A stretch of 48,136 nt of DNA from Clostridiales bacterium (GTDB taxonomy: Bacteria > Bacillota > Clostridia > Christensenellales > Borkfalkiaceae), in contig SVIE01000004.1 of the NCBI GenBank assembly GCA_015069625.1, forward strand, positions 1 to 48,136. Reading direction: 5' to 3'. A model generated the notes under the pieces. That model was not told where the DNA came from and made no database searches. It saw only the letters and a program-made list of their open reading frames with translations. This document shows, one piece after another, positions 1,532-45,450 of the stretch (positions are counted from its first letter, which is position 1; every line of letters starts with the position of its first letter). A program made the position numbers and the translations under genes.

Positions 1532-1658
1532 AAATTAAAGGTTTAGAAACGAGCAATACAAGGCTCGTGAAGTGTTTTGGATGAGATAAACCTTTTTGGT
1601 TATCGAAGTCAAAACACGAAACAGTTAACGTAGCCAAACGCAGTTTATAAGCCATCAA
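1532..1658 (+). repeat. dispersed structured intergenic element, copy A
   Basis: GGTTTAgAAAC/GTTTATAAGCC outer arms; inner hairpin GTGTTTTG..CAAAACAC with apical GATAAACC/GGTTATC. Tandem with copy B at a 125-bp period. Confidence 0.75.
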
Positions 1659-1784
1659 TTAAAGGTTTAGAAACGAGTTAGGCTAGGCTCGCAAAAGGTT
1701 TTGGATGAAATTGACCTTTTTGGTCATTGAAGTCAAAACCTTTTTGCAGTAACGACGCATAACGAAGTTTATAAGCCTTTAATC
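1657..1784 (+). repeat. dispersed structured intergenic element, copy B
   Basis: ATTAAAGGTTTAgAAAC/GTTTATAAGCCTTTAAT outer stem; inner GCAAAAGGTTTTG/CAAAACCTTTTTGC with apical TGACC/GGTCA. 3' arm overlaps the last codons of the 1769..2464 CDS. Confidence 0.75.
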
Positions 1785-33410: not shown

Positions 33411-35297
33411 TTACCACGGAGCTACTGGATCATCAGAGAAATCGTTAGAGTAACTGTCGTTAACTATTACTTCACAAAAAGCAGCCTTTGTTTCAGAAGA
33501 ATTTACCACCCCTATAATTACGCTTCCACCGCTTAAACCAACAACTTCACCTGTCGTCATGCCTACTGATGCAATTGTTGAGTCATAAGATATCCAATAA
33601 CCAGATTCTTCTGCAATCAGGGTTACACGTTCACCTACATCAATATAAAGCGTTTCGTAATTAATCTCCATTCTCGCCACATCTGACGGCATGTCTGCCC
33701 ACATTTCTTCCACAGCTGGATTCCCGCCAACAGATCCAGATGAACCACTACCAGTTCCAGAAGATGCATCTCTCGTTACGGTTACGGTGCAAGTTGCACT
33801 TGCCGTGCCATCCAAAGTTGTTGCTGTTATAGTAGCTGTTCCTACACTAACGCCAACTACTATACCAACATCATTTACTGTTGCCACTAAATAGTCAGAA
33901 GACTCCCATGATACAAGCGGATCAGATGGCGTAAGCTTTGTAAATCTACCTAATTCTAATGTAACTGACGTTTGGTCTAGTGTCAATGAGCCACTTCCTG
34001 TTCCTGGTAATTCGGCACTAGTTACAGTTACAGTACAAGTTGCCGTTGCCCCGCTTAACGAAGTTGCCGTTATCGTTGCTGTTCCTACACCAATACCATA
34101 TACGTATCCTGCCGATACCGATGCTACTAACGGATTTGATGTTTCCCATATTACAAACGAATCGGAAGCATTAATTATTTCATAGTCGTCCACTTCTAAT
34201 GTAATTGACGTTTTATCTAATGTCAATGAGCCACTTCCAGTTCCTGGCAATGATGAGCCCGTTACAGTTACTGTACAAGTTGCCGTTGCCCCGCTTAACG
34301 AAGTTGCCGTTATCGTTGCTGTTCCCGCACTAACACCAACTACCATTCCACCATCAACCATTGCTACTAAATAGTCAGAAGACGTCCATACCACAAGCGG
34401 ATCAGACGGCGTAAGCAATTCATATCCACCAACTGCTAACGTAATTGACGTTTTGTTTAATGTCAATGAACCACTTCCAGTTCCTGGCAACGATGAGCCC
34501 GTTACAGTTACAGTACAAGTTGCACTCTTTGAACCGTCAATTGAAGTTGCCGTTATCGTTGCTGTTCCCGCACTAACACCAACTACCATCCCCCCATCAA
34601 CCGTCGCTACTAAGTGATTAGAAGACGTCCATACTACAAGCAGATCAGACGGCGTAAGCAATTCATATCCACCAACTGCTAACGTAATTGACGTTTTATC
34701 TAGTGTCAATGAGCCACTTCCAGTTCCTGGCAATGATGAGCCCGTTACAGTTACAGTACAAGTTGCACTCTTTGAACCGTCAATTGAAGTTGCCGTTATC
34801 GTTGCTGTTCCTGCGCTAACACCAACTACCATCCCCCCATCAACCGTCGCTACTAAGTGATTAGAAGATGTCCATACCACAAGCGGATCAGACGACGTAA
34901 GCAATTCATATCCACCAACTGCTAACGTAACTGATGTTTTGTTTAATGTCATTGAACCACTTCCAGTCCCTGGATTACTAGGATTAACAACCGTAACTTC
35001 ACAAATAGCACTACCAGAACCGTTTGTTGCTGTTGCCGTTACTTTTGCCGTTCCTGCCGAAACACCTTTTAATAGCCCATCTGTAACGGTTACGACTGTC
35101 GCATCAGATGTCACCCAAGAGAACGTTGTTTCTTCATTAGACGTTTCAGTTGCAGTTATAAGTTTATATTCGCCAACCATTAACGTTACTGAAGTTTCGT
35201 TTAACTTTACCTTTGTTCCACCGCAAGCTGTAAGGCAGAAAGCACCAAGACACGCAATTGCTAATGATAACAAAACCATCATAAGTTTTTTCTTCAT
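33411..35297 (-). CDS. lipoprotein with tandem BIG2 (bacterial Ig-like group 2) domains
   Basis: Lipobox LTACGG; repeated SGSLTLDKTSITLAVGGYELLTPSD..VVWTSSN..VATVDGGMVVGVSAGTATITATS units. Confidence 0.88.
   Translation of the reverse strand: MKKKLMMVLLSLAIACLGAFCLTACGGTKVKLNETSVTLMVGEYKLITATETSNEETTFSWVTSDATVVTVTDGLLKGVSAGTAKVTATATNGSGSAICEVTVVNPSNPGTGSGSMTLNKTSVTLAVGGYELLTSSDPLVVWTSSNHLVATVDGGMVVGVSAGTATITATSIDGSKSATCTVTVTGSSLPGTGSGSLTLDKTSITLAVGGYELLTPSDLLVVWTSSNHLVATVDGGMVVGVSAGTATITATSIDGSKSATCTVTVTGSSLPGTGSGSLTLNKTSITLAVGGYELLTPSDPLVVWTSSDYLVAMVDGGMVVGVSAGTATITATSLSGATATCTVTVTGSSLPGTGSGSLTLDKTSITLEVDDYEIINASDSFVIWETSNPLVASVSAGYVYGIGVGTATITATSLSGATATCTVTVTSAELPGTGSGSLTLDQTSVTLELGRFTKLTPSDPLVSWESSDYLVATVNDVGIVVGVSVGTATITATTLDGTASATCTVTVTRDASSGTGSGSSGSVGGNPAVEEMWADMPSDVARMEINYETLYIDVGERVTLIAEESGYWISYDSTIASVGMTTGEVVGLSGGSVIIGVVNSSETKAAFCEVIVNDSYSNDFSDDPVAPW
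33770..34975 (-). repeat. near-identical tandem DNA repeats of about 240 bp within the BIG2 gene
   Basis: Repeated blocks such as gagccacttccagttcctggcaatgatgagcccgttacagttacagtacaagttgc. Confidence 0.85.
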
Positions 35298-35856: not shown

Positions 35857-35932
35857 ACTAACTCCTTAAAAACTGAAAGCCACCTGCTTATTAATAAAGT
35901 AAGTGGCTTTGTTGTTTTTTGTTTGGCGATAA

Positions 35933-36075
35933 CACAATCAATCGTTAATGAAAAGGGCATACAAGAAACAAGTAAGACAAGGCAAATCCCCGCAGTCAAT
36001 AGTATACATATTAACAAGGGGTTTAACGCTATATTACGAAGTTTATGGTTTGCACTTTATTAATGGATTGTTGTG
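35933..36075 (+). repeat. dispersed structured intergenic element, copy C
   Basis: aagtaagacaaggcaaatcccc...aaggggtttaacgctatattacgaagtttat with flanking imperfect inverted arms. Confidence 0.7.
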
Positions 36076-36084
36076 GCAGAGCCA

Positions 36085-36279
36085 TTAGTCTTTATTTTCT
36101 TTTTTAGCCGTGTCAACAACCTGCTTACCATCATAGTATCCGCATTTGGGGCATACTCTGTGAGAAGCCTTTAATTCGTGACAGTTGGGGCATTCCGAAA
36201 GATTCGGGGTTTCAAGTTTCCACTGTGCGAATCTGGTGTTGGTTCTCTGCTTTGAAGTTTTACTCTTTTGAACAGCCAT
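36085..36279 (-). CDS. rpmF: 50S ribosomal protein L32
   Basis: MAVQKSKTSKQRTNTRFAQWK, CPNCHELKASHRVCPKCGYY zinc ribbon. Confidence 0.95.
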   Translation of the reverse strand: MAVQKSKTSKQRTNTRFAQWKLETPNLSECPNCHELKASHRVCPKCGYYDGKQVVDTAKKENKD

Positions 36280-38035: not shown

Positions 38036-38107
38036 GATTTATTTCCTTTTCCTATTTTTATCTCTCGCCTTTCGGCGATTATGTTTGTTTTGATAGGCTA
38101 TGAAGTA

Positions 38108-38240
38108 ATATCGGTTGATGCAAATTGAAGGTTTAGGAGCAAGCAAGACAAGGCAAATGCCCGAAGATAAGAGTTTACATCTTTTCGAGGGCTTTAACGA
38201 CGTATTGCGACGTTCATAAATTTTCAATTATCAACCGTAT
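38108..38240 (+). repeat. dispersed structured intergenic element, copy D
   Basis: CGGTTGAT/ATCAACCG and AATTGAAGGTTTAGGAGC/GTTCATAAATTTTCAATT outer stem; inner GCCC../..GGGC hairpin; core aagcaagacaaggc...taacgacgtattgcgacgttcataa. Confidence 0.75.
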
Positions 38241-38258
38241 GTTGCTGAAGAGCCTTTA

Positions 38259-39296
38259 TTATTTTGCTTGGAGTGCCGTGATAGCAACAACTGCGATTAC
38301 GTCGTCAACAGAGCAACCACGTGATAAGTCGTTGATAGGTTTAGCAAAGCCTTGGCAGATAGGACCTAAAGCCATATATCCACCGAAACGTTGTGCGATT
38401 TTATAACCGATATTTCCTGCGTTAATATTGGGGAAAATGAATACGTTTGCTTGACCTGCAACAGGGCTATTCGGTGCTTTGAGTTTACCAACTTCGGGTG
38501 CTACCGCAGCGTCGAACTGGAATTCCCCGTCAAGTTTAAGGTCGGGTGCTTTTTGTTTTGCGATAGCCGTTGCTTCTTGCATTTTGGGAACGGTTTTGAA
38601 GAACTTATCGTCATTACCAGAGCCCATTGTTGAGAATGAAAGCATTGCTACTCTTGGTTCGATACCTGCAATATCTCTTGCCGTTTCTGCAGAAGAAACA
38701 GCGATATCTGCAACTTCTTCAGCCGTAGGTTCGATATTGATAGCGCAGTCACCAAAAACTGCAACACCATCTGGATTATAAGGATTTTCGCCGTCTGGTG
38801 CAACCATAACGAAACTGCTTGATACCGTTTTAATTCCAGGTGCGGTTTTGATTACCTGTAAGCCTGGACGAAGGGTGTTTGCCGTTGAATGACAAGCACC
38901 TGAAACAAGCCCGTCCACGTCGCCTGCTTTAAGCATAAGCGCAGCGTACATTGTGTAATCTTTTAAGATTGATGCTTTTGCAGCGTCAACGTCTGCATAT
39001 TCGGGAAGTCCGGTTTTCTTGTTGATTTTACCAGCACGTAAATCGAAAAGCATTTTTGCATATTCTTCGGTCTTAGCGTTAGTTACGGGGTCAACCACGT
39101 TAACGCCTGCTAAATCCACGTCAGGATTGTTCTTCTTGATTTCTTCAAGATTTCCTAAAAGGGTAATGCGTGCAAGTCCTTCTTTAACAGATTGAGCAGC
39201 AGCCTTAACTACACGGCTATCTTCACCTTCTGGAAGAACTATGTTCTTGTTTGCTTTACTTGCTTGTAATTTGATGTTTTCCAAAACCTTAGACAT
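38259..39296 (-). CDS. pta: phosphate acetyltransferase
   Basis: VLPEGEDSRVVKAA, LVSGACHSTANTLRPGLQVI; paired with ackA. Confidence 0.96.
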   Translation of the reverse strand: MSKVLENIKLQASKANKNIVLPEGEDSRVVKAAAQSVKEGLARITLLGNLEEIKKNNPDVDLAGVNVVDPVTNAKTEEYAKMLFDLRAGKINKKTGLPEYADVDAAKASILKDYTMYAALMLKAGDVDGLVSGACHSTANTLRPGLQVIKTAPGIKTVSSSFVMVAPDGENPYNPDGVAVFGDCAINIEPTAEEVADIAVSSAETARDIAGIEPRVAMLSFSTMGSGNDDKFFKTVPKMQEATAIAKQKAPDLKLDGEFQFDAAVAPEVGKLKAPNSPVAGQANVFIFPNINAGNIGYKIAQRFGGYMALGPICQGFAKPINDLSRGCSVDDVIAVVAITALQAK

Positions 39297-44548: not shown

Positions 44549-44617
44549 CTTTTGCTCCTTTATTAAATTATATATCTTTTAATAACAAATTTCAAGTAAG
44601 TTTCTATTAATTAGTAT

Positions 44618-44647
44618 AAAACGCCACCGAAAATTCGGTGGCGTTTT
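44618..44647. terminator. intrinsic terminator, copy 1 of a duplicated hairpin
   Basis: aaaacgccaccgaaaattcggtggcgtttt. Confidence 0.8.
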
Positions 44648-44652
44648 GTTTT

Positions 44653-44976
44653 TTACTTTTGCTTTTCAAAGTCTTTTAAGTCGATAGTGCCTTTATCCGT
44701 TTTGAATTTATGGTATTGCACCGTTGGATATGCCCCAAAATGATAACACCTAGCCGAAACGTAACCTATTTGATAATCTCTGTCTATCGCAATTTTATGT
44801 GCGACGGGTTGTGCCTTTGAATTTAAGGCGTTTTCATTATACTTAATTTCTTTGCCATTAAACCATTTTCCGCCAAGTTCTTTAACTTCTTTTAAAAACC
44901 TGTTTTCTTCACCGTAGTTATCAAAAGTAACCACGATAGCCCTGCTAAACGCTCTGTCTAAATCTTGTTTTGTCAT
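44653..44976 (-). CDS. uncharacterised 107-aa protein preceded by a SAM-clan riboswitch-like leader
   Basis: SD aggag before ATG at 44976; leader with promoter, aptamer-like region and terminator; no recognised family. Confidence 0.75.
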   Translation of the reverse strand: MTKQDLDRAFSRAIVVTFDNYGEENRFLKEVKELGGKWFNGKEIKYNENALNSKAQPVAHKIAIDRDYQIGYVSARCYHFGAYPTVQYHKFKTDKGTIDLKDFEKQK

Positions 44977-45045: not shown

Positions 45046-45145
45046 ATTAGTTCCGTTTCAATCCCCATCGGTCAGCCTTTAGCACCTTACTATTTAGCAG
45101 GTTGCTGTGCGATCAAAGGGGCTGTCCCTCACGCACTCTTTATGG
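45046..45145 (-). ncRNA. SAM-clan (SAM-I or SAM-I/IV variant) riboswitch-like aptamer
   Basis: Minus strand AAAGAGTGCGTGAGGGACAGCCCCTTTGATCGCACAGCAACCTGCTAAATAGTAAGGTGCTAAAGGCTGACCGATGGGG: matches the S-box core GAGGGAC.GCCC..TGA..GC...GCAACC...GGTGCTAA. Confidence 0.75.
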
Positions 45146-45152
45146 TAATTTT

Positions 45153-45181: not shown

Positions 45182-45334
45182 TATGATTGATCCCTATCTT
45201 TTTTTAATATTATATGTGCCAAATAATTAATTGTCAAGTGTTTTTTTGTGTTATTTGATGATATTTTATGTTTTCATGTGATTTAAATTAAAACAAAGTT
45301 ATCTAATCAAGTCTATTTAAAATCATAGAAGATT

Positions 45335-45363
45335 AAACGCCACCGAAAATTCGGTGGCGTTTT
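45335..45363. terminator. duplicated intrinsic terminator hairpin, copy 2
   Basis: aaacgccaccgaaaattcggtggcgtttt, same hairpin as at 44618-44647. Confidence 0.75.
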
Positions 45364-45450
45364 GTTTTTATTTTATAGTGTCTAGATAATTTTCGATATA
45401 CTATATTAATACGACACTAAGATAATAATTCTAATTTATTTTCTTGACTT

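Follow-up and report, generated by a model that had tools for sequence, protein, structure and literature searches.

A short mobile-like hairpin repeat behind gene ends in a Clostridia genus, with an outer stem matched to each host site

The two hairpin units (copies A and B) found behind a CpsB-type gene of the window, i.e., the whole stretch of 48,136 nucleotides that was analysed, belong to a dispersed, mobile-like repeat which is short, non-coding and present in many copies. They are probably two insertions of a non-autonomous mobile hairpin, served by a putative mobiliser, in which one arm of the outer stem would have been fitted to the site by copying; we hold this reading with modest confidence. 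Dispersed bacterial hairpins are as a rule regarded as remnants moved by transposases; here the outer stem is fitted site by site, and even synonymous codon differences have their mirror image in the opposite arm. The copying step, if right, would be a route of spread coupled to the ends of transcription. The features concerned are the following.

1530-1664, + strand: copy A, full type-2 element, distal copy (covariance-model match of 108.3 bits)
1534-1550 and 1643-1659, + strand: outer stem arms of copy A
1654-1788, + strand: copy B, full type-2 element, gene-proximal (covariance-model match of 136.9 bits)
1658-1674, + strand: P1 left (distal) arm of copy B, pairs with 1767-1783
1767-1783, + strand: P1 right arm of copy B (read against empty sites in congeners)
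1677-1683, + strand: P2 5' arm of copy B, pairs with 1757-1763; covarying, with a constant G.A mismatch
1757-1763, + strand: P2 3' arm of copy B
1688-1704, + strand: P3 5' arm of copy B, pairs with 1733-1749; ends in the conserved GG of GGATGA
1733-1749, + strand: P3 3' arm of copy B; begins with the TC of GAAGTC (invariant G.T wobble)
1709-1728, + strand: P4 terminal hairpin of copy B (AATTGACC / GGTCATT)
1769-2464, - strand: host gene, CpsB/CapC family (Pfam PF19567, E 1.1e-57); its stop lies inside copy B
776-1474, - strand: downstream neighbour of cpsB, peptidase family S51 (Pfam PF03575)
35925-36083, + strand: type-1 relative, copy C (also delimited as 35964-36093), with imperfect, longer inverted ends
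38096-38254, + strand: type-1 relative, copy D (also delimited as 38135-38264); abuts the stop of phosphate acetyltransferase (38259)

The tandem pair described in the initial annotation is present, and the arms and hairpins quoted for it were all found on the + strand, but the start-to-start spacing is 124 bp instead of the 125-bp period given there. In copy B the outer portion of the left P1 arm is complementary to the end of cpsB. The right arm is composite: according to the empty sites of congeners, its outer part (AAAGG in the sense strand) is native cpsB coding sequence, and its inner part holds an added last codon and the stop TAA. Copy B had been said to supply the last codons of cpsB; compared with relatives having an empty site, its contribution is limited to the stop and roughly one codon before it (TTA). 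As + strand RNA, copies A and B fold at −33.0 and −43.8 kcal/mol (shuffled means −19.7 and −23.05; z −4.9 and −6.5, respectively), and for neither was any of 200 dinucleotide shuffles as good. No Rfam family matches A or B at the gathering threshold, the best sub-threshold match being a eukaryotic snoRNA (E 0.045). The only Rfam match in the window is a SAM riboswitch aptamer (45062-45148, - strand). Elsewhere in the window, 33411-35297 (- strand) encodes a 628-aa protein with tandem repeats of 240-243 bp and Big_2 Ig-like domains, which from its sequence is likely to be a surface protein.

The source genome (G000) is a MAG of 1.22 Mb in 80 contigs, 77% complete. Profile searches of the whole assembly gave 33 full and about 20 truncated type-2 copies, and about 29 type-1 matches. 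Copies C and D had been grouped with A and B; they do share the core motifs, but they represent a second type (type 1), whose inverted ends are longer than those of A and B, conserved, and start with GGC. Both types have AAGnnAGnCAAGGC at the left and AACGnnGTATTGCGnnGTTTAT at the right. The type-1 copy C18 is flanked on both sides by an 8-bp direct repeat, TTTATTTT; for type 2 no direct target-site duplication is evident, and the piece of target appears inverted. Two type-1 copies of the source genome (C53:3379-3555 and C71:3574-3748) carry an extra hairpin of ~70 bp in the terminal loop.

The family occurs in 16 of 25 genomes of one Clostridia genus of the gut, with 0-47 copies per genome. 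The core motif was counted 49 times in G000, 30 times in G003 and 0 times in G015, the reversed-pattern control giving 0 in all three. The short pattern also matched in Verrucomicrobiales, Erythrobacter, Alphaproteobacteria and one viral contig; the covariance model matches none of these, and they are due to chance. Weak model matches in other families of the order (44-64 bits) resemble generic long hairpins; the core motif is mostly not above the reversed-pattern control there, G188 being a real exception. Relatives of the element with a higher GC content (50-57%) were seen at L306 and L304 in other Clostridia MAGs, which suggests spread or descent outside the genus.

The 33 full copies, in an alignment built from sequence only, form one long hairpin with four helical regions. 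Both sides change at 31 of the 42 pairs, with a covariation score of 0.504 (shuffled, 0.172; slid, no more than 0.146). These controls leave the relatedness of the copies in, although the slid structures, which retain this relatedness, fail. For 90 copies of other MAGs the corresponding values are 34 of 42 pairs and 0.469 (shuffled, 0.148). No shuffle matches the covariation of either set. The compensatory changes with pairing kept, first noticed between A and B, are thus real and hold in both sets. That they reflect selection on structure rather than on sequence is the best reading for the core (P2-P4 with the conserved internal loops), i.e., selection or conservation by the mover; for the outer P1 it is incomplete. 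Part of the covariation there, if not all of it, arises from the pairing of host sequence in one arm with its local reverse complement in the other, and a copying step looks like a better explanation than slow compensatory evolution. If copying is right, strong covariation in repeats may stem from it as well as from selection on RNA.

The conserved unpaired parts are AAGGCTCG, GGATGA/GAAGTC and GCAGTAACG, the G.T pair of GGATGA/GAAGTC being present in 33/33 and 89/90 copies. The + strand is the better folder in 33/33 and 88/90 copies; with the invariant pair left out of the count, this strand has 101 G.T and 32 A.C. The very strong covariation, the asymmetry towards G.U on one strand and the conservation of purine-rich internal loops speak for a structured RNA with a function for its host genes, as an antisense transcript or as a 3' UTR element, all its helices being under ordinary selection. 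A 3' UTR role is unlikely because the better-folding strand is antisense to the abutted gene, hence to the host mRNA; other points on this reading come from the distribution of copies over sites (see below).

The orientation of the element is nearly invariable. Among the copies of both types in the source genome with a called right neighbour, the right-hand gene is on the - strand in 54 of 57, tandem gene pairs giving 41:1 (both types); the same counts in 98 full copies of ruminant-gut Clostridia, taken from named MAGs, gave 93 of 98 and 70:1, gene calls being mechanical ORFs. The direction of replication, rather than that of transcription, may set this orientation, since the two are nearly collinear in these genomes and few elements lie on minority-strand genes. 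However, copies in a tandem pair that follow the majority strand and oppose both genes were not seen, and where a copy sits on a minority-strand gene, as few do, it mostly follows the gene.

In nearly all copies the right end lies at the stop codon or at the terminator of a gene reading toward the element: roughly half of the 98 copies end within about 15 nt of a stop codon, and others come after a terminator U-tract or after another copy. At L261, L271 and L272 the element directly follows T-box terminators (at the gathering score for L261 and L271, just below it for L272). Since elements stand behind terminators and T-box leaders, the common denominator of the sites is likely to be transcript 3' ends and not gene ends per se. 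The element does not show the feature of an intrinsic terminator, no U-run being found behind it in the mRNA sense in the arrays inspected. Two near-identical, terminator-like hairpins of 38 nt (ACGCCACCGAAAATTCGGTGGCGT) are present in the window at 44616-44653 and 45332-45369, 716 bp apart.

The closing stem measures ~18 bp, of which the outer ~10 bp are host sequence, often the last codons; the opposite arm is the reverse complement of these ~10 bp, and pairing ends abruptly. Counted outward from the inner pair, P1 pairing is at least 0.83 over k=9-16 and still 0.87 at k=16, then drops to 0.66 one position further out (k=17) and to background level at k=18 (0.29, against 0.39). It must be noted that 53 of 103 copies have their stem end within k=16-18, about half thus lying outside that range, and that about 10% of P1 cells are unpaired. 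In the 13 copies with a coding outer arm, 8.0 of 10 positions are Watson-Crick with the copy's own distal arm vs. 3.6 with the arms of others, and 0 of 20,000 permutations were as good. One gene, presumably acyl-CoA-synthetase-like from its C-terminus, is the host at two loci, with GAAATAAG facing CTCATTTC at L242 and GAAACAAG facing CTCGTTTC at L288; a T/C difference between the gene ends is mirrored as A/G in the arm. Likewise, the ends ATGATGATTTTATAA, ATGTTCATTTTATAA and TGTCTGTTCTTATAA of a gene which we take from its C-terminus to be queA-like have the distal arms CTAAAACCATCAT, CTAAAACGAACAT and CTAAAAACAGACA, respectively. At empty yebC sites, the longest exact inverted repeat at the stop is at most 9 nt. 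The fit of each arm to its own gene, the mirrored differences and the lack of a repeat at empty yebC sites therefore tie the arm to the site. As the arm differs from site to site, it cannot stem from an inherited guide; a copying step during insertion would account for both the match and the fixed length.

The same arms could come from a quite different source, namely an intrinsic terminator already in place, into the loop of which the element would have been inserted, the outer P1 being the old terminator stem. The cpsB-pepE junction is empty in about 20 congeners, many of them with a terminator overlapping the stop codon, and congener cpsB genes end with GAAGGTTAGACnnnnGTCTAACCTTTTTT, close to the P1 arms; because the native stem resembles the arms, a former terminator stem may have become the outer stem at cpsB. 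As a general rule this is contradicted: yebC genes without the element have no such hairpin, yet the arms of yebC copies are site-matched; many arms lie within coding sequence; behind terminators the arm is the T-tract and not the stem. We consider this explanation very unlikely.

Arrays raise another alternative. In these the full copy adjoins the gene, and successive units are separated by short linkers that recur. What truncated copies retain is the left (distal) side, broken off close to the hairpin tip or past GGCTCG; of the partial copies in other MAGs, the left part is preserved in 18 and the right in 5. The arrays fit two courses of events: new insertions at an occupied site, each displacing the proximal half of the copy already there, or copying that was aborted. 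Template switching during replication (quasipalindrome correction), by copying arm onto arm with no selection or mobile step, would also produce compensatory changes and arms extended into the host flank, and arrays of truncated half-hairpins with repeated linkers fit slippage; but it leaves unexplained the dispersal, the fixed orientation at gene ends and the abrupt limit at ~18 nt, and appears unlikely.

The sites themselves indicate recurrence. Behind yebC the element is present in 8 of 30 species and missing in 22; the cores differ, as do the positions of insertion (about −3 to +5 of the stop). More generally, orthologs of the host genes of other MAGs carry the element in the source genome in 15 of 50 cases, vs. 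14 of 243 control genes, and core identity at orthologous sites is 0.696, vs. 0.702 for random ones. Vertical inheritance at shared gene ends was rejected on this ground, with a few true exceptions (e.g., L254/L300), and by sequence comparison the same gene ends appear to be struck independently. Such recurrence of position would suit a functional RNA as well, but the cores are independent at one and the same site, the host genes are unrelated, the family is genus-restricted, patchy and absent from a 98%-complete congener, and the host-matched arm has a sharp, fixed length; a functional RNA is thus judged unlikely. No clean pair of near-identical genomes before and after insertion was seen, the congeners being mostly ~75-85% identical at these genes. 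In many congeners (L329-L353) a hairpin ACCTTACTTGCCnATACTT..TATCGGCGGTAAGGTATTTTT with a conserved loop lies about 30-60 nt downstream of yebC; at the single locus searched (L338) it has no Rfam match, and it could be an undescribed RNA.

For the preferred reading, two insertions of a mobile hairpin, the following scheme is proposed. The mobile unit would be the core (P2-P4 plus conserved internal loops), its folding strand being antisense to the host gene. It would insert just behind gene or transcript 3' ends, with hardly any exception in the same orientation; the site would be either the stop-codon region or a terminator U-tract, the terminator being intrinsic or of a T-box. At insertion, ~10 nt of the sense strand beside the junction would be copied as their reverse complement at the far end, and the copy would be closed by a stem of ~18 bp fitted to the site. 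We infer (i) movement as a single-stranded hairpin; (ii) fold-back copying at insertion as the origin of the arm; (iii) a putative host or trans-encoded enzyme performing the insertion. Repeated events at one site would lead to arrays, in which older copies retain only the distal half. That this is a mobile element of a new kind, which recognises transcript 3' ends as such, inserts as a folded single strand in a single orientation and makes its closing stem by copying about 10 nt of its target, is put forward tentatively, as a possibility that we rather doubt; the target would then perhaps be the open non-template strand of a paused or terminating RNA polymerase, and ~10 nt, if truly copied, would be close to the length of the RNA-DNA hybrid of this enzyme.

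None of the candidate mobilisers searched for tracks the element. Reverse transcriptase (PF00078) was found in only 4 of 25 congeners, the genomes with the highest copy numbers (G000, G003, G007, G010) all lacking it; Y1 transposase (PF01797, TnpA-REP) in 5 of 25, and not in G000, G007 or G010; ISL3 transposase is absent from 44 congeners, and integron integrase (TIGR02249) has no match over the cut-off in the same number. The distribution of reverse transcriptase argues against a retroelement, whose + strand RNA would be the template for reverse transcription at nicks behind genes, with a fold-back that primes itself. The strand asymmetry suits RNA and self-priming would yield the matched arm, but the end kept by truncated copies is the wrong one for templating by + strand RNA, and this origin seems extremely improbable. 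Hardly more credit is given to an integron-like origin, in which a tyrosine recombinase would move a single-strand recombination site similar to attC; we regard it as highly improbable. The location at gene 3' ends, the fixed orientation, the folding of the antisense («bottom») strand and the unpaired spacers separating the helices, a trait of attC (cf. PMC6393395, PMC3053210), are in its favour; the lack of integrase, of canonical R boxes (RYYYAAC/GTTRRRY, sought by eye) and of cassette arrays, together with a conserved tip and internal loops unlike those of attC, is not.

The comparison with known systems leads to the conclusion that the element is attC-like in action and MITE-like in build, and that it fails one tested defining feature of each. 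Like MITEs and dispersed palindromic repeats (RUP, BOX, ERIC, bcr, Correia), it is a short, non-coding, many-copy, imperfect palindrome with a patchy distribution and no gene of its own; it differs from them by its single orientation at transcript 3' ends, by covariation in every helix and by type-2 ends that are site-matched arms instead of fixed inverted repeats. Conserved terminal inverted repeats shared with an autonomous transposon were not found, since type-2 arms are site-specific and the GGC ends of type 1 come without ISL3 transposase. Integron attC sites likewise fold on the antisense strand and abut stop codons in a fixed orientation, but the present element has a conserved interior, no cassette arrays and no integrase over the cut-off. 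REP/BIME with RAYT (Y1) are also extragenic palindromes that fold as single strands near gene 3' ends; in contrast, the element is ~125 nt long with conserved internal loops, in a source genome without Y1 transposase. Group IIC introns target positions just behind terminators; the target position is alike, but the element has only about 125 nt and no RT. Rickettsia palindromic elements, which have no known mobiliser, are hairpins of about this size that have entered the coding frames of many genes, whereas the present element stops at the gene end.
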